IMG/VR virus record: IMGVR_UViG_3300050011_000408
Span: 1-51,613 of that record
From: a virus
Direction: 5' to 3' (one strand)
DNA: 51,613 nucleotides
The notes below the pieces were generated by a model, which searched no databases, was not told the DNA's origin, and saw only the letters and a list, made by a program, of their open reading frames with translations. Of this stretch, positions 1,078-40,917 are shown piece after piece; position 1 is the first letter of the stretch, and every line of letters begins with the position of its first letter. A program made the position numbers and the translations under genes.

Positions 1078-1101
1078 ACATGTGTCTTGGGCGACACATG
1101 T
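1078..1101. promoter_or_regulatory. Perfect inverted repeat, TGTGTC-N6-GACACA type
   Basis: ACATGTGTC and GACACATGT (nine bases per arm) flank the six-base spacer TTGGGC. It lies between the 1304-1582 gene and the start of the 668-1054 gene, in the upstream region of the latter. The same geometry recurs at 1594-1739 and 5433-5450, which suggests a binding site for a dimeric DNA-binding protein. The protein is unknown. Confidence 0.6.
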
Positions 1102-1303: not shown

Positions 1304-1582
1304 TCACTGAACTATAGAATACTCGCGTCCACCGATCTTTATTTGTCTCATGGTATTAAGCCGGATCATCCTATATCCTAGACGCTGAACATCGTAAACT
1401 GTAACTAAGTCATGTTCTGAAGGCTCATAGGCCATTCCGACACTCTTGACGTACCGAGATACGCCCGTGCGACATACCATGTTTCGAATCGAGCCATCAT
1501 TCTTAGCAAAAGAAATTGCAAAGATCATGCCATTAGACGACTTAATTAAATCGATTGCATGCTCGCGTGTTATTTTAGACAT
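1304..1582 (-). CDS. SH3-like / WYL_2 (DUF2693) family protein
   Basis: A 92-residue protein with the pattern 'FAISFAKNDGSIRNMVCRTGVSRYVK', then 'YEPSEHDLVTVYDVQRLGYRMIRLNTMRQIKI'. I recognise this as the small Sm-like/SH3 beta-barrel family (WYL_2, formerly DUF2693) seen in phages and plasmids. It is thought to be a nucleic-acid or ligand-binding barrel, but no function is established here. The start follows AAAGGA by eight bases. Its upstream spacer (1583-1758) is the TGTGTC dyad array, so this gene is the most direct candidate to be controlled by it. Confidence 0.8.
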   Translation of the reverse strand: MSKITREHAIDLIKSSNGMIFAISFAKNDGSIRNMVCRTGVSRYVKSVGMAYEPSEHDLVTVYDVQRLGYRMIRLNTMRQIKIGGREYSIVQ

Positions 1583-1593
1583 ACCTATTCCTT

Positions 1594-1739
1594 TGTGCCA
1601 TAAATGGCACGGTTAGTAAAGAAATGCGTCACAATTGACACATCTCCGCAACTGTGTCATAAAAGACACAAGTACTTGTTTACATATGTCATTTCCGACA
1701 CATGTGTTTTTCCAGACATATTGTGTCATCCATGACACA
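1594..1739. repeat. Array of six TGTGTC-N6-GACACA-type dyads
   Basis: Six imperfect 18-bp dyads with a constant six-base spacer start at 1594 (TGTGCC/GGCACG), 1625 (TGCGTC/GACACA), 1653 (perfect), 1685 (TATGTC/GACACA), 1703 (TGTGTT/GACATA) and 1722 (perfect). They fill the space between the GP88-like gene and the WYL_2-like gene. Conserved arms with changing spacers indicate a protein-binding array, such as operators or iterons, rather than a simple tandem repeat. No intrinsic terminator was seen in this spacer. Confidence 0.75.
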
Positions 1740-1758: not shown

Positions 1759-2622
1759 TCAATTAAATAACTCAGGATGCCATTTATAGGCTGCGGCCAT
1801 ATCATCCTGAGTCAATCCAGACACAATGGGAACTGTGTCACGAACGAAGCCAGATGTGTCTTTTTTGGCCCTACCTTTTGCCTTGAGCCCAACAACAACG
1901 CCTTTTGCGTCTAAAAATCTTAGATCGGTAGCATCGCCGTTGACTACAGTATACCCGAATAGGCTGACAGGTAGCTCCGACGTCCTAAACACAGCTGCAA
2001 CACTGCCGCCCTTGTTTAATACATGAATAGCGTCTGAGTCATTGTCTTCTTTAAGACTGAACGTCAAGTGGTAGTTGGCTGGTATCTTAAAATTGTACCG
2101 CTTAGGAATGGCCGTATAATCATAAAAGATCACATCAGGGAATGACTGAATGATATCCGAGTTAAGTTCCCATAAACGATCTGAAGTTCCATTCAATCGA
2201 ATACACAGTGTCAAGCCTTTGTTTCGAGCTTTAACTATACCTGATTTAATTGATTTTTTTACGTTCTTATCAAAACGTAGTTGATCAAATACCATTGCAA
2301 GAGTTTTTACAATACGTGCGCGAGTTACACTGTAAAATCTGCCCCTGCCTGCTGTGAATAGACAAGCAGCGCGGCATCCTGCGCTCGATTTAGGACACAT
2401 ATTGACTCCCGACAAGCTGGCTGGAGCTAAATAAAGTATTCCAGTTAAGTAACCTTTTCCCAGTCCTTTCTTAGTCTTAGCATCAACGGAGAATCCCAAG
2501 ACACATCTATTATAAACCTTTTCAATGTCGTCCATTGTGATCGGCACATGTTTCAGGGGAAATTGAGAACCTAGGTCAACGTTGACCTTATTAATTAAAG
2601 CAAGTCTTTTAATTGTATTCAT
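1759..2622 (-). CDS. GP88-like protein (mycobacteriophage gene product 88 family)
   Basis: I choose the ATG at 2622, four bases from the stop of the upstream 64-residue gene and preceded by GAGG; a longer frame to 2661 would overlap that gene. The 287-residue product has 'CPKSS.GCRAACLF.AGRGR' (Cys76, Cys83, Cys87), followed by 'LCIRLNGTSDRLWE' and 'FYDYTAIPKR', the layout of the GP88 family (PF17338). The clustered cysteines suggest a metal or Fe-S site, and the fold resembles that of radical or barrel-type proteins, but no activity is established. It is the largest gene of the leftward block except for the DUF932 gene nearby in size. Confidence 0.75.
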   Translation of the reverse strand: MNTIKRLALINKVNVDLGSQFPLKHVPITMDDIEKVYNRCVLGFSVDAKTKKGLGKGYLTGILYLAPASLSGVNMCPKSSAGCRAACLFTAGRGRFYSVTRARIVKTLAMVFDQLRFDKNVKKSIKSGIVKARNKGLTLCIRLNGTSDRLWELNSDIIQSFPDVIFYDYTAIPKRYNFKIPANYHLTFSLKEDNDSDAIHVLNKGGSVAAVFRTSELPVSLFGYTVVNGDATDLRFLDAKGVVVGLKAKGRAKKDTSGFVRDTVPIVSGLTQDDMAAAYKWHPELFN

Positions 2623-2623
2623 A

Positions 2624-2818
2624 TCAATTAACCTCGTTGTTTTTAGAGTCAATGTATCCAAGTCTAATTCCTAATCTATCAATATAATCCAATGTAGTGG
2701 ACGCATGTTTATAAGCCTCATTTAGTTCGAAAATGCTAGCTAATTCAGCATCATAGCCTAAATAACCTATAGAATCATATAACATGCGTCTAAGTTTTAA
2801 ATAGTCTTGTTTATTCAT
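2624..2818 (-). CDS. Small protein sharing the LD.ID.LGI.LGY module
   Basis: 64 residues. It starts inside the last codons of the 167-residue gene (ATGA overlap) without its own ribosome-binding site, so translational coupling is likely. Its C-terminal half 'FELNEAYKHASTTLDYIDRL' plus 'GIRLGY' is clearly related to the tail of the 668-1054 product (about 14 of 26 positions identical). Function unknown. Confidence 0.7.
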   Translation of the reverse strand: MNKQDYLKLRRMLYDSIGYLGYDAELASIFELNEAYKHASTTLDYIDRLGIRLGYIDSKNNEVN

Positions 2819-3318
2819 GCTGCACGACGCTTGTTAATAAAATCGTACTTAATAACATCACATGGTATCATATTCCCTGCAATATCCCTGTCAATAGGTT
2901 TAAGAGGCAATACGGGACCCACGACGTGGCGACCCAATTGAAAGTCAACGTGGATCACATTGGACACATCAGGGCTATTCCTAAGTGAAGCGTTATGGCT
3001 TGGGTCGGCATGTTTTTCGCTTAGTTCGTCTAGCACGCGCTGTTTAGAGTATTCGGCATCAGCCGGATCGATCCAAGTGGTATCGGTATAGTACAGATGG
3101 ACCCACTTAAAACCCATTCTACAGCGCTTGTTAGCGGATACAGTCGGATTGTATGCCTGTACGCCATAGGTTCTAAAAACTTCATTAGAGATATCAACAC
3201 CATATAATGAACCAAGGTCACCTTTGTTTTTCAGTTTGGTCCAATACTTGGAATTAACTTGGACGGATACCTTGACTGTGTCATCATTAGAACGATATAC
3301 ATTAGTGATTTTAAACAT
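2815..3318 (-). CDS. Hypothetical protein, leftward block
   Basis: 167 residues with no family I can name. The N-terminus 'MFKITNVYRSNDDTVKVSVQVNS' is beta-rich; the middle has aromatic segments (WVHLYYTDTTW) and the end is basic (NKRRAA). An AAAGGGA ribosome-binding site precedes the ATG, and the start lies one base beyond the stop of the 54-residue gene (TAATATG). The tight junctions on both sides support a single leftward operon from 3639 to 1759. Confidence 0.7.
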   Translation of the reverse strand: MFKITNVYRSNDDTVKVSVQVNSKYWTKLKNKGDLGSLYGVDISNEVFRTYGVQAYNPTVSANKRCRMGFKWVHLYYTDTTWIDPADAEYSKQRVLDELSEKHADPSHNASLRNSPDVSNVIHVDFQLGRHVVGPVLPLKPIDRDIAGNMIPCDVIKYDFINKRRAA

Positions 3319-3639: not shown

Positions 3640-3683
3640 GTTAACTCCTTTGTTATGTTCTGACAGATAGATACTAATGCATT

Positions 3684-3706
3684 CAGCATACCAGACAGAT
3701 TAGACT
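3684..3706 (-). promoter_or_regulatory. Leftward promoter-like element with extended -10 (copy 1)
   Basis: On the reverse strand it reads TTAGTCTAATCTGTCTGGTATGCTG backwards from 3701; the core GTCTGGTATGCTG is shared exactly with the site at 4749-4761. TGGTATGCT fits an extended -10 (TGnTATnnT). No good -35 is at the usual spacing. Two copies upstream of the two leftward transcription units support a promoter role. Confidence 0.45.
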
Positions 3707-3926: not shown

Positions 3927-4697
3927 CTATGCAATTAACTTCAAAGCTACATCAAACAAGCTTTGATTAAAACTAGCATCTTTATCAGAATTAGGCTTAA
4001 TCGCCCTACCTGCCATTCGGCGCACATTAGGCCGTCCTACGGAGTCAATAGATTGAAGCGTATAGGCGATATTGTTACCCTTGACGCTATTTTCCTGTGT
4101 CAAATTGTACGTGCTCCATAGATCCAAGTTCTTATCAGACTCACGGTTAGGAGTTAATAGTCGATGCTTTACTTCAATCGAGTTATCGGGAGTCAATAGC
4201 TTGACTGCCTCTAATGCAAGGAATTCACGTTGACTAGGCGTTAGGATAGTACGCTGCATTAGGCCGATAGTCTCGGATAGTTTGGCTTGCATACCTAATG
4301 CCGCTAGAATGCCCGTGTTCAAATTGGCATATGTGTCGCCATTGTGTCGGATACCATGTTTAAAAAACGAAGTACCAGTGAATAGGCCGTTTGTGCATAC
4401 CATGCGGAATATGCCAACATGAAGCCTATCGACTCCTCGACCCATGTGTTTAGAATCATACACTATGTCTAGGAAGACTCCATCGGCCACTTCGGGACCA
4501 CGATACCTTGACAGGGTCCGCTGAAAGTCTTTCGTTGACTCAAGTCTACCCTTCCCTGAAGAGATGCTAACAGGTAGCAAGCCATTATCTACCATAACTT
4601 GTCCTACCTGGGAAGCTTGGATAACATTAAACTTGTCTGATACCTTGGTATGCCTTTGGTCTTGGATATAAGAGTTTGAAACATTAAGGTTATTCAT
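3927..4697 (-). CDS. DUF932 family protein
   Basis: 256 residues from the ATG at 4697 (MNNLNVSNSYIQ). An upstream ATG at 4754 lies inside the promoter-like TATGCT and lacks a ribosome-binding site, so I reject it. Key family marks are 'LHVGIFRMVCTNGLFTG.SF', 'SQREFLALEAVKLL', 'WSTYNLTQENSVKGN' and 'VRRMAGRAIKPNSD...NQSLFDVA', the order found in DUF932 (PF06067) proteins of phages and plasmids. It is somewhat shorter than typical members (300-400). DUF932 proteins often sit in replication or plasmid-maintenance neighbourhoods, but their activity is unknown. Confidence 0.85.
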   Translation of the reverse strand: MNNLNVSNSYIQDQRHTKVSDKFNVIQASQVGQVMVDNGLLPVSISSGKGRLESTKDFQRTLSRYRGPEVADGVFLDIVYDSKHMGRGVDRLHVGIFRMVCTNGLFTGTSFFKHGIRHNGDTYANLNTGILAALGMQAKLSETIGLMQRTILTPSQREFLALEAVKLLTPDNSIEVKHRLLTPNRESDKNLDLWSTYNLTQENSVKGNNIAYTLQSIDSVGRPNVRRMAGRAIKPNSDKDASFNQSLFDVALKLIA

Positions 4698-4748
4698 ATT
4701 GGTCCATTCCGGCTTATTCAGCCTGTTATGATTGAATACTAAAGCAAG

Positions 4749-4770
4749 CAGCATACCAGACTAATTAGGC
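4749..4770 (-). promoter_or_regulatory. Leftward promoter-like element with extended -10 (copy 2)
   Basis: The reverse strand carries TTAGTCTGGTATGCTG, sharing the exact 13-base core with 3684-3696. It lies 52 bases upstream of the DUF932 start. A second possible promoter just upstream is ATGACA-N17-TATACT (reverse strand, about 4777-4806), whose -35 overlaps a GACACA hexamer; competition between a GACACA-binding protein and polymerase is therefore possible. Confidence 0.45.
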
Positions 4771-4992: not shown

Positions 4993-5432
4993 GGATCACT
5001 ATTCAACTAGATCGCTTTCGATATTCACTATTCACTACTGTATCATAAACATTAGTTTTTAAGAATCTGTTTACGCGTTTTGCCACGCTTGGAGTCATTG
5101 ATATAATTTGTATCAAAACCCTGGTATATGAGAACATGGCATCCACCGAGTCGAGCCATGCCATGCGACCCTATAGCATCTCACCGCATCGCGTTATACT
5201 GCCCGCCAGTGCATTCTATCCAATGAATGAAGCTAACGCCTATAGGTTAGCATTGTACCGCACTGCGAGTCAAGCGAGGCGTCCTATACGGCACATACAT
5301 TGCAATAGCACTGTGTCACGCGTGCATGTGTATAGCCCCATTGACGGCCCATGTGTCCAGTCACCGATGACACAGCCACGATTGATTCGAATTCCTTAAT
5401 TGATTCACATATTTACGTGAAACCGGTGTTCC

Positions 5433-5450
5433 TGTGTCCCCCACGACACA
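5433..5450. promoter_or_regulatory. Isolated perfect TGTGTC-N6-GACACA dyad
   Basis: TGTGTC-CCCCAC-GACACA lies about 165 bases upstream of the rightward promoter's -35. It is the rightmost member of the dyad family, and no further copies were noticed in the remaining 46 kb. It may link control of the leftward block to the rightward early genes. Confidence 0.55.
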
Positions 5451-9085: not shown

Positions 9086-9110
9086 CTGTCTGATCCACCT
9101 TTAGTATCCT
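9082..9110 (+). promoter_or_regulatory. sigma70-like promoter for the structured region
   Basis: TTGACT (9082-9087), 17 bases, TATCCT (9105-9110). The start would be near 9117, at the left boundary of the GC-rich structured stretch. The TGA of the upstream gene is nested within the -35. Confidence 0.7.
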
Positions 9111-9116
9111 GGTTAT

Positions 9117-9544
9117 GTGGTGGATGCGTGGGAACCGGCAATACGGACCAAGCGATTGATCGCCGATATACTCCTTAATTGGAAAGAACTGATCATGGGT
9201 ACGGGAAAGCGGCTTACCCCAATCCCCCTGAACCGAGCAGGTCTCGTGTCATTCAACTGGCACACACTCGGAATGTTGAGGGAGTGGGAACCGCACCAGA
9301 CGCGGACCAAATAGATCCGTAGGGCATTGGGAGCGGCCCAGTAAGAAGTGGATAGAATCTCCCAGCTTGGTCCTAACCCAAACCTTAGGTGGGGGAGGCC
9401 ATTTTGATGCAGACAAACGGCGGACCACTGCGAAGGAAAGTCGCTAACTTACCAGTCCAGATCTCTTTAATCTGCTAGAGCGGTTCGAAACGTAGTCTAG
9501 CCCGGTTTGCCGATGGGATATTCGGCTAAACTTTCGGAGTTAGA
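9117..9544 (+). ncRNA. Candidate large structured RNA or structured leader (~430 nt)
   Basis: This segment is visibly richer in G+C than the genes around it, has no supported reading frame, and begins at a promoter. Helices found by eye: CCG/CGG (9135-9146), GGGTA/TACCC (9197-9219), CCGAG/CTCGG (9233-9271) enclosing GTGTC/GGCAC, CCGC/GCGG (9291-9305), CTCCC/GGGAG (9359-9397) enclosing CCTAA/TTAGG, GCAG/CTGC (9409-9431), GCTAGA/TCTAGC (9474-9501), and CCG/CGG (9502-9537) enclosing GTTT/AAAC and CCGA/TCGG. The motif GTGGGAACCG...CGGACCAA occurs twice (near 9128 and 9284). The last helix overlaps the GGAG ribosome-binding site of the 9545 gene, so a regulatory leader is an alternative to a free RNA. 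I do not recognise RNase P, tmRNA or a group I intron. Confidence 0.55.
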
Positions 9545-11737: not shown

Positions 11738-12343
11738 ATGACTATTTGGTTCACATCAGACGAACATCACGGGCATCGAAATATTATTACTTACAGTAAT
11801 CGCCCATTTAATTTTATTGAGGAAATGAGTGAGGTTCTCATCGCAAACCACAATTCTGTGGTTAAGACCGACGACATCGTTTATCATTTGGGCGACTTCT
11901 CTCTGAATAAAACCGCTCCGGGGCTAATCTTGCCAAGACTTAATGGTATCCATCACCTAATTGCTGGTAATCACGATCATTGTCATCCAGTACATGCCAA
12001 GAATCCTGCAAAACTTGAAAGGTTTAGAAAAACATATTTTGATGCTGGCTTTAAAACTGTTGAACTCAGTGACCAGTTTACGTTTGATATTAAGGTGGTA
12101 AAAATGTCCCACTTTCCTTATTTTGACGAAAATGCTCTTTTTGATCAAAGATATCCCAAACTTAGACCTATTGATGATGGAAGTATTTTACTGCACGGCC
12201 ATGTTCATAATGCTTGGAAAACTCAATTATCTCCTAAGGGTAGCCTTATGATTAACGTGGGTGTGGATGCATTTAACTATTTTCCAGTAGCTCTAAAAGA
12301 GATTGAACTGTTAATTAGAAAACATATTGGTCTGAGTGTGTAA
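11738..12343 (+). CDS. Calcineurin-like metallophosphoesterase
   Basis: 201 residues, starting two bases after the previous stop. The metal-ligand motifs of the calcineurin-like fold are in order: 'FTSDEHHGHRNII' (D-x-H), 'YHLGDFS' (GD), 'IAGNHDH' (GNHD) and 'LLHGHVHNAW' (GHxH). This pattern, with DEHHGH, is common in phage phosphoesterases; they hydrolyse phosphodiester or nucleotide bonds, but the substrate cannot be read here. It ends the 9545-12343 operon. A second, unrelated-looking phosphoesterase lies at 20521-21183. Confidence 0.9.
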   Translation: MTIWFTSDEHHGHRNIITYSNRPFNFIEEMSEVLIANHNSVVKTDDIVYHLGDFSLNKTAPGLILPRLNGIHHLIAGNHDHCHPVHAKNPAKLERFRKTYFDAGFKTVELSDQFTFDIKVVKMSHFPYFDENALFDQRYPKLRPIDDGSILLHGHVHNAWKTQLSPKGSLMINVGVDAFNYFPVALKEIELLIRKHIGLSV

Positions 12344-14805: not shown

Positions 14806-15207
14806 ATGAGTTATACAGAACAAGAGTTCAAAAAAATAATCTATGCCAAATATCCAAATAAATATATTACCGTAGATATAGATCCTATAGACTCAAAGAT
14901 CTACGTGTGTGCATTTGATGTAGCGGCAGAGTGTAGAAAGAGCCTTCCTTTAAAACTAGTATTGGCCACTCATATATTGTATGATGGACAAGTGTGTAAG
15001 GATTCGGATAATTTATTTTCTTTTCCTCCAAAAGTTATGACTGGATCGAAAGCAACTTTCACTATAAATGGTCAACATGTTGGTTTTATGGATGGAGATT
15101 ATTTTACTATTGATGACCCCCATTCTGTTCCGGTATGCCAATGTGGTAAAGAAAAACATGGTTTCGCCAAGCATTCCGATTGGTGTGATATTAAGGAAGG
15201 TGCCTAA
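14806..15207 (+). CDS. Hypothetical protein with leaderless start
   Basis: 133 residues (MSYTEQEFKKIIYAKYPNKY...). No ribosome-binding site precedes the ATG because the -10 box of the 14771 promoter lies six bases upstream. The C-terminus has 'VCQCGKEKHGFAKHSDWC', a C-x-C...H...C cluster that could bind zinc. Family unknown. It leads the next operon and overlaps the following start as TAATG. Confidence 0.7.
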   Translation: MSYTEQEFKKIIYAKYPNKYITVDIDPIDSKIYVCAFDVAAECRKSLPLKLVLATHILYDGQVCKDSDNLFSFPPKVMTGSKATFTINGQHVGFMDGDYFTIDDPHSVPVCQCGKEKHGFAKHSDWCDIKEGA

Positions 15208-15419: not shown

Positions 15420-15794
15420 ATGAGTTATGCCCTATATGCTGTAATAGCGTTTTTAGTATTGTTTGCGATTCTTCTTCCATTCGCCATTGATTGGTTTTTC
15501 CATGATAGGGAATTGGAGAATGCATTGCCAGACAGTTTACCAGAGTATTCGCCTGCTGAGTCTGCGGCAAATATTGGTATGGTGGGTCTATCGAAACAAA
15601 TTGCGAAAGATCTATACAAATCTAAAGATTCAGAGCCAGCAAATCCCGACCTTGCCCCATATCTTGATTCGAGCACCTATACCCTTTCTTGGACACCAGG
15701 TGGAACGGATCTTCGCGCAAGTCATTCTACAACTAAAAAGAAGTCTAAGAACAAGAAAAAGGCTAAGAAAAAGACCAAGAAAACCAAGAAGTAA
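15420..15794 (+). CDS. Membrane-anchored protein with Lys-rich tail
   Basis: 124 residues. Residues 3-24 (YALYAVIAFLVLFAILLPFA) form one strong membrane helix, probably an N-terminal anchor. The central part is acidic. The last 24 residues are almost all Lys, Ser, Asn and Thr (TTKKKSKNKKKAKKKTKKTK). The polybasic tail would lie at the membrane or nucleic-acid face depending on topology. No family is recognised. Starts three bases past the previous stop. Confidence 0.65.
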   Translation: MSYALYAVIAFLVLFAILLPFAIDWFFHDRELENALPDSLPEYSPAESAANIGMVGLSKQIAKDLYKSKDSEPANPDLAPYLDSSTYTLSWTPGGTDLRASHSTTKKKSKNKKKAKKKTKKTKK

Positions 15795-32157: not shown

Positions 32158-35100
32158 ATGGCAACTAATCCAATACCACCAAGCTCAACTCTCCCACAGC
32201 CTCTTTCGTACGAGGCTATTCTTGGTCAAATGTTATCTAGCTATGCGAGTTCATTGGGAATTAATGATTTAAATACGGGTTCGGCCAATACCGCTTTCAT
32301 GCAACTAGTTGCCTTAATGGTCGCCCGTTCATCTGGGGACATATTCCAAATCCTTCGTGATTTTAGTTTAGATAGAGCAACTGGTCCAGCCCTTAAGAAT
32401 TTGGGTATTGAGTACGGCGTCCCCCCAATAGGTTCTGCCACAGCTACCAGTTCTATTACCGTTACGGACCTATCCTTTCAAAAAATTGCTACCGTTATCT
32501 ATGCTGGAACAAACCCTCCAATCCCAGGATCTACCACAATCAATGTAAGCGACGCCTCACAATTCCCAGCAACAGGTACTATCTATCTAGGTAGAGGTAC
32601 TGTTAATATTGAAAGTCGCCCATATACCCTAATAACTCCTATTGGATCTTATTATGCAATAACCCTTTCTTTGCCAACTACCAGGTTCCATAATATTGGT
32701 GAATCCATAATCCTATCTCAAGGTGGCGTTAGAACCGTTCCTATAAATACAGTAGTCGTCTCTCCCGGTGTTGGCACTACCGCTAGCGTTCAATATTTCG
32801 TAACTAATGCTGGTATCATCTTAGATGGCGAAACAGTTGTTACCAATGTTCCAATCACTGCCCAGCTCCCTGGTGCCACTAATGGCAATGTTCCAGGTGG
32901 CGCTATTTCAAAGTTTTCTGCTAATCCTCCTGGTCTATCCAATGCCAGCGTTACAAACCCTTTGGCAGTAACTACTGGCAGAGATGCAGAAACGGATGAA
33001 CAGTATAGGGTTCGTATTAAAAATGCTTTAGCTTCTACCGGGCTGGGCACAGTTACGGCCATTGAATCGGCCCTCCAGGGAGTTCAGGATCCTACTGGAT
33101 CTGATTCAATAGTTAGTACCGATGTTCTGAATTCTGCTACCAATACTACGGTTTATATTGACAATGGGGCAATTTTAGAAGCAACTCATACAGGAGTGGC
33201 TATTGAGGCCATAGTTAATTCGGCGCTAGGCGGAGAAAAGTTTTTCCAACTAGTAACGGGTGGAACACAAACTTCTGTAACTAAAGCTATTCTCCAAAGC
33301 GTTGCCGCTGAACCCTTTGCTCTTTTCGGTGGTGAATATTTAGAAGTGATTGTTGGTAATGTTACCTATCCCCATGTTTTTGTTGCAGCTGATTTTGCTA
33401 ATCCTGGAAGTGCAACAGCCTATGAAGTTTGCGCTAGTATAAACGGGGACACTTCCCTCAATTATGAAGCAGTTACAGCTGGCAATGGAACTTATGTAGT
33501 TATTCGTCCTGAAGATCAAGTTACCGATATAATTCAGGTAACTACTCCTCCTGTAATCATTCCTCCATTAACTGACGCTAATACTGTCTTACAGTTTCCT
33601 TCACAAAAGGGTGAAACGCTAAGACTGTTTAAAAATGGTCGCCTTCTAACTGAAGATGGCGTGACGGCATCTATATTTACGCAAGACCAAGGACTTTGGT
33701 CTTCAAATTTAGCAACTAATGTAACATTTGGCCTTTCTGTGGATGGTACTGCTCCTGTCACGTACATACTGACAGATGCGATGTTTTTGGCCGAAGGCAC
33801 CTACACCACTTTATCTCGCACAAATAACCTGCAATCTTGGGTAAACGTTCTTAATACCAATATTGCCGGAATTACAGCCTCTATCGTTGGATCAACAATA
33901 GAAATTAGTAGCAATTTAGGTGCCATAGATAGAGCTAAAATTACAGTTGTTCCTACGGCCTTTCCTTCTCTAACAGATGAGGGAGTGATTAGTTCTACCG
34001 ACCTTACTTCTACCGGAATAGCGTCAGACTATATTTTAGACAGGAATACCGCACAAATTGAATTGACTAGCGCCCTAGTAAAAAAAGATTTGCTTTCAGC
34101 TGGTACTTACATTACACAGGCGAACATTCAAGCAGGAAATATACCTTCCGGCCTAGTTACCTTAACTTCAGATGCACATGTTTGGATTTCTATAGATACG
34201 AATGCTACCATCATTCCTACTATACAAAGAGGATCGACTCTATCTGTTTCCACCATATCCCCAACCATTGTTAGATATACTAGCAATGCCAATTCTTTTT
34301 TAAATGTTTTGCCAGGAGATTACGTCATCATTTGGTCAACAGAAATTCATTCCACAGATGATCTGGAAGGAAGAGTCCATGCTGTTTCTGGGAACACGTT
34401 AGACATAAAAATAACTGTTGCCGAGTATTCTCTGGTCACTCCAGTTTCAAATGCCCCATTTGTTCAAGGTTTTGTGGTTGTCAGGACCGCTAATGTTCCT
34501 CAAAAGTTTAAGGTCCAATCGTCTATTTCGGCACAAGATATCTATGCTATTGCCGCCGAGCTTCAACTTCAAACGGACGAAGTTACTTTTGGAGTCGTTA
34601 ACGACGCCAATATTACGGTAACAACAAACACTCTAGGCAATGAAGGCCAGATTACAGTTGTTACTGCCGATTCTTTTGGGGCTCTTTTAGGGTTTGTCGG
34701 TGGAACTAACAGTGTTAGTCAGGAGGCACTAACGGCTTTCTATGAAACTAAAGCTACAACTGCAGAACTTCCATTATTTTTCCATTCTACTATCAGTGCT
34801 GATTCCTATGCTGAACCAATTGATACCTATTTGACCAATTTTTCTTCTACACTTTCTCTGTCTTCTTTTGATCCAAATGAACTTATTAATTTTCTAAATC
34901 CCTATGGAGTTCAACCGGTAATTTCTGGTGGCTCATCGTCTAGCTTATTGGGATCAGCGGCCACCTTTGCCCTCTTGGCAACTTCAATGATAACTAATAC
35001 AGGGCCTAGCACTATTACTGGTGATGTGGGTGTAACTCCTAGTGGTTTTATTACTCCTGGTGGGTGGACGTTAGTAGGGACAACTCATACCAATGATGGA

Positions 35101-38100
35101 GCGGCTGCAACAGCTCGTACCGATGCTCAGACCGCCTATACCTCTCTCATGGGAATGACTCCTACCGGTACTTCTGGAGGCCACATTAATTCCGAACTTG
35201 GTGGCCAGTTTCTTGGTCCTGGCGTGTACGTAGCCACTTCTGGAACAGCCGGAACCTTCACTTTAAACGGAATCCTCACCTTAACCGGAAACGGCGTTTA
35301 CGTATTTCAAGCCCCATTAAGCACTATTATAACTGGTGGAACGGGAACTCCAGTTATTACACTAGCTGGTGGAGCTTCAGCATCCAACATCTATTGGGTA
35401 GCAAATTCTTCAATTACCATAAATTCTGGCTTTACGGGAATTTTCGAAGGTACTGCCATTGCTTCTGCTAGCGTTGGTGACACACTAGGGGGAACTGTAA
35501 ATGGTAGATTAATTGCTCTTACAGCTGCAGTAACTTTGAGCGCAACAACTATAGTTACCGCCCCCGCATCTCTTCCAGCGGGTGGCGTTCTGACATTGGT
35601 GAGTGGTACGGGAGATACAACGATTGCCTATTCTGCATTTACTATACCGTTACAACCTCTTCAGTATGCCTTTACAGTAACTTCTGCAAATGCCACTGTT
35701 GGCGCAGTTTATAGCACCAATGGATTGTTTTTTACAGTTTCTACAACAATTGTAGGTGGTACGACACTAACCTTAGTTGGTGCTGGTCTTATTGATGACG
35801 AACAGCCATCGGAAGAAACCGTCCAAATGTGGGCAACTGCTGGAACTTCAGTAACAATTCTTCCAGAATACCCAGACGTAAGACGCCTTAGGGTTGCCGA
35901 TAGATACTACGTAGCCAACCCCCTAGATTTTGGATATAACGATACTGTTGTCGTTATTGTGGACAACAATACGGTTGGTGAAACTTATACGATGCCTCTC
36001 TATAGGAGAGCTATCGTCAATAGTCTTTGGCCAGCAAACGATTACAGCTTTGACGCTTACGATGTAGATGCGGGGGCAACCGCAAGCTTCGACGATAACT
36101 TTACTGGATTTGATTTCTCAAACTTCAAAGCATTAATGCAAGCCAAATACGTTATCCAATCAGCATTGGTGCCACAAACAGCGCTCTTGCTTAGGTCTAT
36201 TCTTTGGGGTCGTAGTGGTGAAAATATAAATGTTTCCTATGTTTACCCAACATCTGCTAATCAACCTATTGGTTCCAATGTCACCATTACTAGTGCTGAT
36301 AATGTCAGTATAGAAATTAGCTTAATGTCCGGCAATCCAATTAATTTTCCAGGTATTACCTCCAATACACAGTGGAATGTGAGCACAACGGGGCAACGTA
36401 CTTTCACAGTACCAACTGCTGCAGCCGCTACTGTTGGTGCGGTTTATACCAACAATGGCCATATATTCACGGTAACTACTACAAAGGTTACTAGTGTAGG
36501 AACTACTTTAGTTACGACTAGTTCTGGAGTACCCTCGGCTTCTGGAATTCTTACAAAAATTACTGGCACGGGAGATGCAACAATTGCTTTCTCAGCGTTT
36601 GTTTTTTCGGGAATTGATGAAGTAACGTACACCTATGCGGGAAACTATACGTTTACGGTACTACTTGCCGCCGCCGCTACTGTTGGCGCAGTTTATACCA
36701 ACAACGGTCAAACATTTACCGTTACGACCACGAAAGCTGGTGGAACGGGAACTACACTAGTTGCTACCAATTCTGGCGGCGCGCCCACAGCTTCTGGAAC
36801 CCTAACGAAAGTTAGTGGAACTGGCGATACCACAATTGCTTTCTCAGCATTTACTTTTTTAGGCGCAGGCACAGCTCCAAACCTAACTTTAAGTGGGGGA
36901 GAATATGTAACAATTCTTCCTTCTACTGGATTTAATATAGAAGACACGGGAACATTTAGGGTATCTACGGCTGTAGGATTTACTCCCACTTCTACTTCTT
37001 TTAGCGTCCAGGTACCAGCAGGAACTGCATTTGCTCAATCAAATGTTTTGACTATCGCCGCATCAGGCATGAGTTTCTACAACTCTTCCCCAACAACTGC
37101 TGCAGCTATAAATACCTACATTAATAACAACCTAACCCAATACATTACTTCTTCAATAGTAAATGATGGCGGAACTTCCGGATCTGGAGTTATCGCGTTA
37201 AGTAGTTATGAAGACAGCGGTTTCGTAACTCCATTTTACTACCTAAATGACGGCATTAACTGGATAGCAAATGATGGCCAATACGTATTTACCGTAACTG
37301 CTGCAAATGCAACTGAGGGCGCTCTATATACTACCCTGAATAGCAACAATCAGTTACAATACTTTACGGTTATTACGACCATTAGCGGTGGCACGTCACT
37401 TAATATGGCCGGTTCAATTGGAACACCTCCTGTATCAGGAATACTAGTTCTCGTAAGAGGAGATGGAGATGCTGCGATTACCTACTCAGCTGTCTCTCCA
37501 AGACCACAATTTACTTTTAAAGAGCCACTCACTTACGCTACCCCTCCACTTGCTCCTGGATATAGCTTTTTTACGAGTGGGGATGAAGTAAGGCTCATTC
37601 CAACTACCATGGATCAAGTCCAAAGACTGTGGTCTATTTTAGCTGTGACCGGTTTTACTACGGTTGGAACCGTGGAAGTAGTGGATCGCGGTACAAAACT
37701 CCAATTAGCTACGAATACATTAGGATCAGTAGGGGCTATTCAAATTGTTGGTGGAAGCGGAAACGAATACACTGTTCCTGTACTGACTTCCGGTGAACTT
37801 CTCGGCAACAACGAAATGCTAGTTTCTGCAAACAATATCGCAAGTCAGGCTATGGCCAGTGATCAATGGTTCAGGCTTCAAGCGCAAAACTATCAGAATA
37901 AAGATACGGGAATCGGCAATAATACCAGTGTGGCTATTGTAAATAATAACCCTAGTGGTGGAGATTCTACCATAACCCTTCTAAATCAAGAATTGGGCCA
38001 ATTGTATTTCGGTGGTCCTAGAAATAACGTTAGTGTGGAAGGAAGAACTTTTAGAATAGAGAAACAAGGATCCCTCGCTTGTTTGAGTTGGAACGGAGTC

Positions 38101-40917
38101 GGCACTTCTCCTGGTTTTAGCTCTTCTGTAAACTTTAATGACTTAGGAGGTTGGGTAGTTAACGTGTCCGCATTGGGAGTTTATTCCATATCTTCTACTC
38201 CAGCTCCCACCCCAAGCATATTAGCTTCTGCAGCAACATATGCCGCATTGGGAGCTTCTGCAGTTGTGGGATCTGCTATAGCATCGACTCTTACTGGTAA
38301 CTTAGGTATTTACCCTAATAACGTTTCCTCTATTACGAATCTTCCTCCAAGTACTTATACTGGAACAGAAAATGCTGGTAACGCTGCTGCTCAGACCGCT
38401 CAAGCTGATGCTTTGGTTGCGTACAATACTATGGCGGCTGAGGTAGCAACTCCAATTCCTGCCATTTTGGATGGCCAGACTCTTACTCCTGGAGTTTATA
38501 CCGAAATTACGGGAACTTTTAATTTGGCGACTTCCACAGCTGGAACCCTGACCTTTAATGGCGCTGGAACTTACATCATACATGCAACAAGTACGCTTGT
38601 TACCGGTGCCGGTGGAACTCCAACGATGACCCTCATTAATGGAGCCTTAGCGAGCAATATTTACTGGATCGTGGGTAGTTCTGCTACCATTAATTCTGGT
38701 CATACTGGAACCTTCCAAGGTAACGTTATTGCTTCTGCATCCATAGGCGTTACTCTTGGTGGTACTGTAAACGGAAGCCTTATAGCTCTCAATGCCGCAG
38801 TAACATTGAGTGCTGCTACCATTATCAATTCACAGTCTACTTCTGCTCCTTTAGTTGCCGGACATACCAGTTTTTCAGGTCTCACAGTTGGCGATTTAAT
38901 CACTATTTCTGGCCTACTTAATGCTAGTAATAATGGAACTTTCTTCATAACAAGTGTTTCTCCTGACGGACTTTCTTTTACTGTTTCAAATTCATCAGCA
39001 GTTGTAGAAACTGGAACAGCGGTTCTATCTGGAGCTTTTACGGCTACTTCCTCTGTTTCTGAAGGAGATACTTTAATAATCTATCCTCCATTTGCTCCCA
39101 TTAATCAGGGACAATATAGAGTTATCCGTATGTCCGAGGATAGTGTTTGGTATGAAGATCCAAGAGCAAAAGCATTTCCTACGGTTGTAAATATACTTGA
39201 AGAGGAAGTTACCTGTATCGCAAATCCTGTAACTACCACGTTCGACGCTACAACTGGTTTTAACGTCTCCATTTTGAATGGAATTGAGACAATAAGCTGG
39301 AATGGCACCGGAACTCCTATGATGTTCCCCTTTAATCTCCCCATTCAAGGGAATGTCGCTACATTTGGATCAGGATTCCTTAATACTTATACGTTTACTG
39401 TAACATCTGCTACGGCAAATGCTCTTGATACGTACACCGATGGATTAGGCAACACCTTTACCGTAGTAACCTCTATTGCTTCTGGAACCACTTTAGTTAC
39501 TACTAGTCCTGGAGCCCCAACTACTTCCTCTGGAAGTTTAGCTAGAGTTACTGGTTCCGGAACCAACCCAATCCTATTCAGTTCAGTAACAATCACTCCT
39601 GTAAATCAAGGAAGCTTCGTAGTCGTAGGATCTGGTTCAACTCAGCCACAAATTGCTCAATTTATTTTCCCTCTTGCAACAAGTTTCACTCCTTCTGGTC
39701 CTGGACAATATTTTGAGTTATTTAGCGGAACTCCTGGCAATAAATACGCTATCTGGTACAATGTTAGCCCTGGAAGCAATGTAGCCCCTATAGTTCCTGG
39801 ATTTACTCTTATAGGGGTTACTATCAATAGCGGAGATAGTGCCGCCACAGTTGCTTTAAAAACATATACTGCCATTAATGGGTTCATGGTCGGATTAACG
39901 GCTTCCTATGTTTCTCTAAGCAATGTAGTAGCAGTAACAACAACGGCTTCTGCTACTACCTTTCCGCCCACTATCCCCGTTTCTATGCCAACAGGTTTCA
40001 GTTTTGCAATCACACAACTTGGCCAAACAGCATTCATAAGCGTTATAAACCCATCTGCTGTTGTACAAACTGGGATTTCTTCTGTAACTTTTTCAATAAA
40101 TAACCCACAAATTCAATTTTTCCCATATGAATCAACCGTTCCAGGAGACAAATTGGTGGTTAATGGGAACGCTCTTGGTGCAGGGAATGCCGGGACATAT
40201 CAGATTCTATACGTTACTAGCCCAACAACTGTAGTTGTTTCCGGAAATGTCTTTTCAACAATTAGTCCCATAAATTTGGCTGGGAATTCTACTTCTGTGG
40301 CCGTTCAAGAAGGTGTCGCTTATACTGGATACAAACAGGTAGACTTTATATCTCCACAAGAAGGTGTTGCTAATTTTAACAATATTGTGTTTAATACCTC
40401 TGCACAATATGAAAAAATTGATCCAGCTGCAGATATTGGGATGGTCGCTCTCAATAAGTTAAATTTTCCAGTGACCGTAAGAACCGGGATAGATGCCTAT
40501 AACTATGACACGGGTTTGATCGGACAAGCCAATAGGGTTATTTATGGAGATCCACGAGATCCTGTGACATATCCAGGAGTTAATGCTGCAGGAACAAATA
40601 TTTTTATTAGAGAGCCGCTATTAAAAAGAGTCTTTATTGCTCTAGCCATTAGAACGAATATCGGGGTTAGTTTTGCACAGATTGCCAATCAAATACGGTC
40701 CTCCGTTTATGCTCTGGTATCATCCAATTTGATTGGTGAATCGATTGATTTGTCTTCTATAGTGGAAACTGTTAGACTAATACCTGGTGTGACATCTGTC
40801 GTGTTAACTAGCCCTACTTATGATGTAGCTAGCGACGAAATTGTTTTGGTTACTGGACAGAAGGCCATAATAATTAACCAGACATCCGATATCACCGTAA
40901 GCCTCATAGGGTCATAA
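32158..40917 (+). CDS. Giant baseplate J/gp6-like protein with two DUF3494 domains
   Basis: 2919 residues; no clear ribosome-binding site before the ATG. Residues ~1-320 are baseplate-J-like: 'ANTAFMQLVALMVARSSGDI', 'TGRDAETDEQYRVRIKNALA'. Residues ~2750-2919 ('GVSFAQIANQIRSSVYALVS', 'SSIVETVRLIPGVTSVVL') are the matching C-terminal part. Between them are at least 2,400 residues of inserted beta modules: DUF3494 at ~930-1135 and ~2020-2225; five ~70-residue 'VGAVYTNNGQ.FTVTTT..GTTL' repeats (~1171, 1416, 1498, 1709, 2412); and the 'FELFSG....WYNV.PGSN' module at ~2499-2581. A wedge subunit normally has 300-650 residues; the insertions may be displayed on the baseplate surface. Confidence 0.85.
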   Translation: MATNPIPPSSTLPQPLSYEAILGQMLSSYASSLGINDLNTGSANTAFMQLVALMVARSSGDIFQILRDFSLDRATGPALKNLGIEYGVPPIGSATATSSITVTDLSFQKIATVIYAGTNPPIPGSTTINVSDASQFPATGTIYLGRGTVNIESRPYTLITPIGSYYAITLSLPTTRFHNIGESIILSQGGVRTVPINTVVVSPGVGTTASVQYFVTNAGIILDGETVVTNVPITAQLPGATNGNVPGGAISKFSANPPGLSNASVTNPLAVTTGRDAETDEQYRVRIKNALASTGLGTVTAIESALQGVQDPTGSDSIVSTDVLNSATNTTVYIDNGAILEATHTGVAIEAIVNSALGGEKFFQLVTGGTQTSVTKAILQSVAAEPFALFGGEYLEVIVGNVTYPHVFVAADFANPGSATAYEVCASINGDTSLNYEAVTAGNGTYVVIRPEDQVTDIIQVTTPPVIIPPLTDANTVLQFPSQKGETLRLFKNGRLLTEDGVTASIFTQDQGLWSSNLATNVTFGLSVDGTAPVTYILTDAMFLAEGTYTTLSRTNNLQSWVNVLNTNIAGITASIVGSTIEISSNLGAIDRAKITVVPTAFPSLTDEGVISSTDLTSTGIASDYILDRNTAQIELTSALVKKDLLSAGTYITQANIQAGNIPSGLVTLTSDAHVWISIDTNATIIPTIQRGSTLSVSTISPTIVRYTSNANSFLNVLPGDYVIIWSTEIHSTDDLEGRVHAVSGNTLDIKITVAEYSLVTPVSNAPFVQGFVVVRTANVPQKFKVQSSISAQDIYAIAAELQLQTDEVTFGVVNDANITVTTNTLGNEGQITVVTADSFGALLGFVGGTNSVSQEALTAFYETKATTAELPLFFHSTISADSYAEPIDTYLTNFSSTLSLSSFDPNELINFLNPYGVQPVISGGSSSSLLGSAATFALLATSMITNTGPSTITGDVGVTPSGFITPGGWTLVGTTHTNDGAAATARTDAQTAYTSLMGMTPTGTSGGHINSELGGQFLGPGVYVATSGTAGTFTLNGILTLTGNGVYVFQAPLSTIITGGTGTPVITLAGGASASNIYWVANSSITINSGFTGIFEGTAIASASVGDTLGGTVNGRLIALTAAVTLSATTIVTAPASLPAGGVLTLVSGTGDTTIAYSAFTIPLQPLQYAFTVTSANATVGAVYSTNGLFFTVSTTIVGGTTLTLVGAGLIDDEQPSEETVQMWATAGTSVTILPEYPDVRRLRVADRYYVANPLDFGYNDTVVVIVDNNTVGETYTMPLYRRAIVNSLWPANDYSFDAYDVDAGATASFDDNFTGFDFSNFKALMQAKYVIQSALVPQTALLLRSILWGRSGENINVSYVYPTSANQPIGSNVTITSADNVSIEISLMSGNPINFPGITSNTQWNVSTTGQRTFTVPTAAAATVGAVYTNNGHIFTVTTTKVTSVGTTLVTTSSGVPSASGILTKITGTGDATIAFSAFVFSGIDEVTYTYAGNYTFTVLLAAAATVGAVYTNNGQTFTVTTTKAGGTGTTLVATNSGGAPTASGTLTKVSGTGDTTIAFSAFTFLGAGTAPNLTLSGGEYVTILPSTGFNIEDTGTFRVSTAVGFTPTSTSFSVQVPAGTAFAQSNVLTIAASGMSFYNSSPTTAAAINTYINNNLTQYITSSIVNDGGTSGSGVIALSSYEDSGFVTPFYYLNDGINWIANDGQYVFTVTAANATEGALYTTLNSNNQLQYFTVITTISGGTSLNMAGSIGTPPVSGILVLVRGDGDAAITYSAVSPRPQFTFKEPLTYATPPLAPGYSFFTSGDEVRLIPTTMDQVQRLWSILAVTGFTTVGTVEVVDRGTKLQLATNTLGSVGAIQIVGGSGNEYTVPVLTSGELLGNNEMLVSANNIASQAMASDQWFRLQAQNYQNKDTGIGNNTSVAIVNNNPSGGDSTITLLNQELGQLYFGGPRNNVSVEGRTFRIEKQGSLACLSWNGVGTSPGFSSSVNFNDLGGWVVNVSALGVYSISSTPAPTPSILASAATYAALGASAVVGSAIASTLTGNLGIYPNNVSSITNLPPSTYTGTENAGNAAAQTAQADALVAYNTMAAEVATPIPAILDGQTLTPGVYTEITGTFNLATSTAGTLTFNGAGTYIIHATSTLVTGAGGTPTMTLINGALASNIYWIVGSSATINSGHTGTFQGNVIASASIGVTLGGTVNGSLIALNAAVTLSAATIINSQSTSAPLVAGHTSFSGLTVGDLITISGLLNASNNGTFFITSVSPDGLSFTVSNSSAVVETGTAVLSGAFTATSSVSEGDTLIIYPPFAPINQGQYRVIRMSEDSVWYEDPRAKAFPTVVNILEEEVTCIANPVTTTFDATTGFNVSILNGIETISWNGTGTPMMFPFNLPIQGNVATFGSGFLNTYTFTVTSATANALDTYTDGLGNTFTVVTSIASGTTLVTTSPGAPTTSSGSLARVTGSGTNPILFSSVTITPVNQGSFVVVGSGSTQPQIAQFIFPLATSFTPSGPGQYFELFSGTPGNKYAIWYNVSPGSNVAPIVPGFTLIGVTINSGDSAATVALKTYTAINGFMVGLTASYVSLSNVVAVTTTASATTFPPTIPVSMPTGFSFAITQLGQTAFISVINPSAVVQTGISSVTFSINNPQIQFFPYESTVPGDKLVVNGNALGAGNAGTYQILYVTSPTTVVVSGNVFSTISPINLAGNSTSVAVQEGVAYTGYKQVDFISPQEGVANFNNIVFNTSAQYEKIDPAADIGMVALNKLNFPVTVRTGIDAYNYDTGLIGQANRVIYGDPRDPVTYPGVNAAGTNIFIREPLLKRVFIALAIRTNIGVSFAQIANQIRSSVYALVSSNLIGESIDLSSIVETVRLIPGVTSVVLTSPTYDVASDEIVLVTGQKAIIINQTSDITVSLIGS

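Follow-up and report, generated by a model that had tools for sequence, protein, structure and literature searches.

The window, the whole 51,613-nucleotide stretch of a 51.6-kb virus record that we analysed, has six copies of a short dyad packed into the gap between two genes, and we asked what these repeats are for. Judging by matches to tail sheath, baseplate, ribonucleotide reductase and homing endonuclease proteins, the window is evidently part of the genome of a large phage with a contractile tail. A leftward block of genes at its left end holds GP88, DUF932 and WYL_2 and is headed by a 0.85-kb non-coding region. We presume this block to be early, given its gene content and its divergence from the remaining genes. 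An ORF of 2919 amino acids at 32158-40917, inside the tail and baseplate gene cluster, received no identification. The genes around the dyads are as follows.

1304..1582, minus strand: WYL_2 gene (PF10902, 27.6 bits, cut-off 26.7), directly downstream of the array
1759..2661, minus strand: GP88 gene (PF17338, E 6e-41), directly upstream of the array
2815..3318, minus strand: leftward gene of family A2, with homologs in the related phages G001, G009 and G012
3927..4754, minus strand: DUF932 gene (PF06067, E 3e-9), first large gene of the leftward set

Six dyads occupy the gap between GP88 and WYL_2

A sequence-only reading had described six TGTGTC-N6-GACACA dyads at 1594-1739, upstream of the WYL_2 gene. 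We recovered all six, starting at 1594, 1625, 1653, 1685, 1703 and 1722, with the start-to-start distances of 31, 28, 32, 18 and 19 bp that had been given, and they lie between WYL_2 and GP88 as described. Two are perfect, and the mismatches to the consensus number 3, 1, 0, 1, 2 and 0 from the first dyad to the sixth.

1594..1611: dyad 1, TGTGCC-ATAAAT-GGCACG, three mismatches, adjoining the WYL_2 ribosome-binding site
1625..1642: dyad 2, TGCGTC-ACAATT-GACACA, one mismatch
1653..1670: dyad 3, TGTGTC-ATAAAA-GACACA, perfect
1685..1702: dyad 4, TATGTC-ATTTCC-GACACA, one mismatch, with a 24-bp extended form at 1682-1705 that has one mismatch
1703..1720: dyad 5, TGTGTT-TTTCCA-GACATA, two mismatches
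1722..1739: dyad 6, TGTGTC-ATCCAT-GACACA, perfect

Five dyads with at most two mismatches lie in the 176-bp gap, compared to a maximum of one in 1000 dinucleotide shuffles. Window-wide, there are nine such matches against 1.3 expected, and none of 100 shuffles gave nine. The inner T-to-C/A-to-G change in dyad 1 is symmetric between its arms. The spacings of 18, 19, 28, 31 and 32 bp have no helical phase common to all. As in an operator array, the gap contains multiple copies of one dyad, with fixed arm spacing, in a control region and above chance.

The motif extends over the left 5.5 kb of the window

Two isolated dyads, at 1078-1101 and 5433-5450, had also been proposed to belong to the set. 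Both are real, and the set reaches further: of the 37 exact half-sites (GACACA/TGTGTC) in the window, 32 lie in the left 5.5 kb, and the remaining 46 kb have 5. Among all hexamers, the half-site ranks first for enrichment in the left 5.5 kb (p 1.7e-26), and the array is the densest part of the set. Some dyads are located inside ORFs. Beyond the array, the members are:

1078..1101: perfect 24-bp extended dyad with 9-bp arms, ACATGTGTC-TTGGGC-GACACATGT, about 30 bp upstream of the likely start of the next leftward gene
1808..1825: dyad with one mismatch, within the 3' end of GP88
5352..5374: TGTGTC-N11-GACACA pair
5433..5450: perfect 18-bp dyad in the 0.85-kb non-coding head region of the leftward genes

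Related phages carry dyads in the corresponding region

Relatives were recovered in part through the pattern and in part through proteins; they measure about 116-177 kb and have dyads in the matching region. The double-dyad pattern alone retrieved five public viral contigs, one of which (G009, 170 kb) is a relative by protein, with a GP88 that is 70% identical and a DUF932. Searches with tail-sheath and nucleotidyltransferase proteins found G001, G011, G012, G013 and others. A scan of viral contigs with DUF932 as the single protein returned no relatives, and megablast of the window against named phages gave no match.

The sequence-only reading had named relatives with the same genes and no dyads as the finding that would count against it. 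We observed dyads upstream of the WYL_2 homolog in both G013 (perfect, at 93 bp) and G011 (one mismatch, at 373 bp), in each case within a small ORF. Between GP88 and the next large gene, G009 has three dyads, two of them perfect and the third weaker and degenerate; they reach the ribosome-binding site of that large gene, which comes after GP88 and two short ORFs. G012 has an array of four CGTGTC-type dyads. The motif is thus kept at corresponding places, with exact arms that vary in G011 and G012, and the 24-bp form is perfect in the window, G009 and G013. GP88 phages at greater distance are without dyads. By eye, widely spaced pairs like that at 5352..5374 occur at the matching place in G001 (N10) and G009 (N13).

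Early-region enrichment of the half-site hexamer is strongest of all hexamers in G009, with 21 copies in the 7.8-kb early region versus 12 in 162 kb (p 1.6e-20). The hexamer ranks fourth in G001, its enrichment is weak in G011, and the exact hexamer is not enriched in the early region of G012, which uses CGTGTC. In every one of five phages, half-sites are most often arranged inward-facing at N6 (29 pooled versus 6 for the next arrangement, with exact reciprocal pairs counted twice). Beyond the early region, half-sites of either orientation are few, and of 60 hexamers with the same composition TGTGTC is the rarest or the next to rarest there in five of five phages. These low counts match Markov expectation in four of the five, with a weak avoidance signal in G009, and avoidance is therefore not proven.

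Two further features of these regions were observed. The early region of G009 (L034 6800-14600) has its own word usage, with GCTAAA, GCCTAA and GGGTTA strongly enriched relative to the rest of the genome. Two genes beside dyads in G001 (L035 15660-15790 and 17990-18170) contain in-frame short tandem repeats, of GNALVS type and pentapeptide-like.

Similar dyads occur outside the group

The four other viral contigs retrieved by the strict pattern, and nearly all new matches to a relaxed pattern, are unrelated phages. That similar double dyads occur in unrelated phages counts against an operator function. No common regulator was found beside the dyads in the unrelated phages, where shared neighbours come mostly from near-identical or closely related phages. 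When bacterial genomes were scanned for the double dyad, seven unrelated places came up, of which three are near NtrC-type regulator or TPR-type genes and have the form TGTGTCC-N4-GGACACA; we took no evidence of membership from these.

In bacterial MAGs (L082, L087 and L088), dyads resembling TGTGTCC-N4-GGACACA occur in pairs close to NtrC-type response-regulator and TPR-type genes; they are possibly sigma54 enhancer sites. One unrelated phage has a TGTGTC-N6-GACACA pair in a lambda O-type-like replication ORF, with a Cro-like small ORF nearby (L098:3338-3397).

The array as probable operators of a presumed early block

A cooperative operator array and replication iterons had both been suggested for the six dyads, and the operator half of that suggestion stands up better. 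An operator array fits because the motif recurs at control points of the same region in relatives, is more enriched in the early region than any other hexamer in two phages and has half-sites that are scarce elsewhere. We infer, with a probability of roughly 0.64, that the array consists of DNA operators through which a dimeric protein regulates early genes. Such a sequence-specific regulator would recognise the 18-bp dyad, whose core is TGTGTC-N6-GACACA and whose full form is ACATGTGTC-N6-GACACATGT; in the gap between GP88 and WYL_2, several of its dimers would sit next to one another on strong as well as weak copies. The same protein would bind single dyads and half-sites across the leftward block and its head region, and would thereby control transcription of the presumed early block as one unit. 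This would define the early control system of an uncultured group of large phages.

A live sub-case of this reading is repression of the stoperator kind, in which a phage-encoded repressor on many scattered sites would stop transcription of the early block at initiation and at elongation alike, in the manner of cluster A mycobacteriophages. We consider this particular form unlikely, although the sites are many and are confined to a single transcribed block. Among isolated half-sites, GACACA is the commoner form in the sense strand (16:4 in the window; 25:7 with G009, p 0.002), but this count rests on isolated and paired half-sites that were sorted by hand, and codon use may cause the bias. One orientation also predominates among cluster A stoperators (PMC6550527). 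However, stoperators are asymmetric, whereas symmetric dyads dominate here; no repressor or integrase was identified in an unsystematic search, and no sign of lysogeny was seen.

Replication-origin iterons, where an initiator would bind dyads beside AT-rich DNA as in the lambda ori, are doubtful. Dyads of the head region do adjoin AT-rich tracts in the window, G001 and G009, and the unrelated phage mentioned above has the same dyad pair within a replication-like ORF. In addition, the minimum of cumulative GC skew in G009 is near the dyad region, but divergent transcription would also produce such a minimum. This reading is less supported because the sites are spread through 5-8 kb of early sequence, gene interiors included, and form no single compact cluster as at an origin. 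Moreover, the six-copy array lies outside the head region and no initiator was seen.

We also weighed RNA hairpins in the early mRNA, with a 6-bp stem and a 6-nt loop near ribosome-binding sites, that would be read by an RNA-binding protein or by ribosomes. The gap's RNA has a folding energy of -59.7 kcal/mol (z -5.6) in the sense and -48.3 (z -4.5) in the antisense direction, and several dyads are near start codons. By our own count of the printed dyads, seven of nine with a single change retain a wobble pair in the sense strand, but this is not significant (about 0.09). Folding is expected of any dyad array and fails to separate an RNA from a DNA function, and composition explains about half of the strand difference. 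Since partnerless half-sites are enriched too, and the low counts elsewhere hold for both orientations, we regard hairpins as quite improbable.

Least probable are non-regulatory repeats, i.e. recombination or packaging sites or a functionless spreading repeat: the early regions are mosaics of small genes and the dyads move relative to genes between phages, but the arms and the N6 distance are kept across phages of 41-53% GC, and the sequences between the arms are unrelated from copy to copy, so recent duplication did not spread them.

Sigma54-type boxes and candidate regulators

The pattern TGGCA-N7-TGCW has the GG-N10-GC spacing of sigma54, and by this resemblance such boxes are candidate sigma54 promoters. 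Five records have 38 of them versus 8.1 at other spacers (p 2e-14, pooled over the five phages), and part of the 38, especially in the tail genes of G001, lie within coding repeats. Twelve unrelated phage stretches gave 10 versus 8.8, and the window alone has 4 strict boxes versus 1.6. In relatives, TGGCAC...TGCA boxes stand before early genes. The boxes relevant to the window's leftward block are:

4743..4758, minus strand: sigma54-type box TGGTATGCTGCTTGCT, upstream of DUF932, with a GACACA half-site (4797) about 40 bp upstream
3678..3693, minus strand: sigma54-type box TGGTATGCTGAATGCA, with a GACACA half-site (3730) about 40 bp upstream
1517..1532, minus strand: strict sigma54-type box TGGCATGATCTTTGCA, within WYL_2, some 61 bp downstream of the array in the sense direction

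The two intergenic boxes, TGGTATGCTG(CT/AA)TGC at 4758 and 3693, were chosen post hoc with a looser motif, and the strict box at 1517..1532 may be coincidental. In G012, 43 bp separate the end of the four-dyad array from the strict box that follows, and two GACACATG half-sites immediately precede such a box in G011. Half-sites within 80 bp of a strict box number 2 of 18 in G011 (0.33 expected), 2 of 17 in G012 (0.31) and 1 of 22 in G009 (1.48). Over all half-sites, the association of dyads and boxes is modest, a lead and not a result.

Of 30 TAAAAGWT sites in G009, G011 and G012, 10 have a box 54-55 bp downstream, and within 200 bp no other distance is seen; a promoter-like module of about 80 bp therefore exists. 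We rejected the dyads as the general upstream site of G009 and G011 promoters, where the fixed upstream element is TAAAAG in most. The module, TAAAAG[AT]T - 55 bp - TGGCA-N7-TGC, stands before early genes of G009 and G011, with 54 bp in G012. Its sites are:

L034 (G009:18000-37000): 9105-9175, 11778-11848, 15133-15203 and 15594-15664
L042: 187
L071: 19007, 13020 and 9259

Myxococcus phage Mx1, the sole named phage that matches the window's large sheath-like protein, has no perfect dyads and no enrichment of sigma54-type boxes in the 150 kb examined. For a further GP88 phage (IMGVR_UViG_3300029955_000041, L120), the counts are 11 strict TGGCA-N7-TGCW boxes in 17 kb and, for the palindrome CCGGGC(C/G)GCCCGG, 14 copies, many adjoining boxes; it has no TGTGTC dyads.

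The dyad sequence follows the site rule for Fis-type HTH proteins, a 6-N6-6 dyad with G-N14-C, and both TyrR and NtrC carry Fis-type HTH domains. No HTH scored above the Pfam cut-off among the early genes of the window and ten proteins of relatives. A 61-aa protein of G001 (L036:3543-3728) resembles a Fis-type HTH (HTH_8-like) at E 1.7e-4, below the Pfam cut-off; it is stand-alone, with the DNA-binding domain type of NtrC and TyrR without the AAA+ domain. No counterpart was recognised in other phages, with the window, G011 and G012 examined in part. The AAA+ activator domain PF00158 was not found in nine records, nor the RpoN DNA-binding domain in five; the host could supply both RpoN and the activator. 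By eye, G011 encodes a stand-alone response-regulator receiver-like protein (L071:10713-11048).

Our preferred but unproven candidate is a Fis-type HTH regulator of the TyrR/NtrC class, host- or phage-encoded, that would act on sigma54-type promoters; the site data agree just as well with a phage repressor of any other fold. A bolder proposal, which we think rather unlikely, is that a group of T4-sized phages runs its early genes from host sigma54 promoters. The dyads would then be enhancer or operator sites for a Fis-type regulator (of the host TyrR/NtrC class, or a phage mini-protein like the 61-aa HTH of G001) that ties early expression to host state. Should the sigma54 link prove true, early genes of a phage would rely on the sole bacterial sigma factor that needs an ATP-driven activator. 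A limited keyword search of the open-access literature found no case of phage early genes dependent on sigma54.

Comparison with known systems

Short dyads repeated near AT-rich DNA recall lambda-type origin iterons, but the phage dyads are scattered over kilobases and several genes. Cluster A stoperators are likewise repressor-type sites, many in number and with a partial orientation bias, over a transcribed region of a phage; they are asymmetric, in contrast to the symmetric 18-24 bp dyads described here.

The phage dyad also resembles the 17-bp NtrC dyad (PMC8743547), the enhancer site TGCACCA-N3-TGGTGCA found at sigma54 promoters; dyads measure 17-18 bp in the two systems. Sigma54-type boxes occur in the same phages, and the four-dyad array of G012 stops 43 bp short of one. 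However, the arms are different, most phage dyads are at no fixed distance from a box, and the phages tested encode no activator.

The TyrR box is TGTAAA-N6-TTTACA with an essential G-N14-C, and strong and weak boxes lie side by side (PMC4374768). The phage dyad is also 18 bp long, with the 6-N6-6 layout, outer TGT/ACA and G-N14-C. It differs in the inner arm bases, which are AAA/TTT in the TyrR box and GTC/GAC here, and in its setting among phage early genes.
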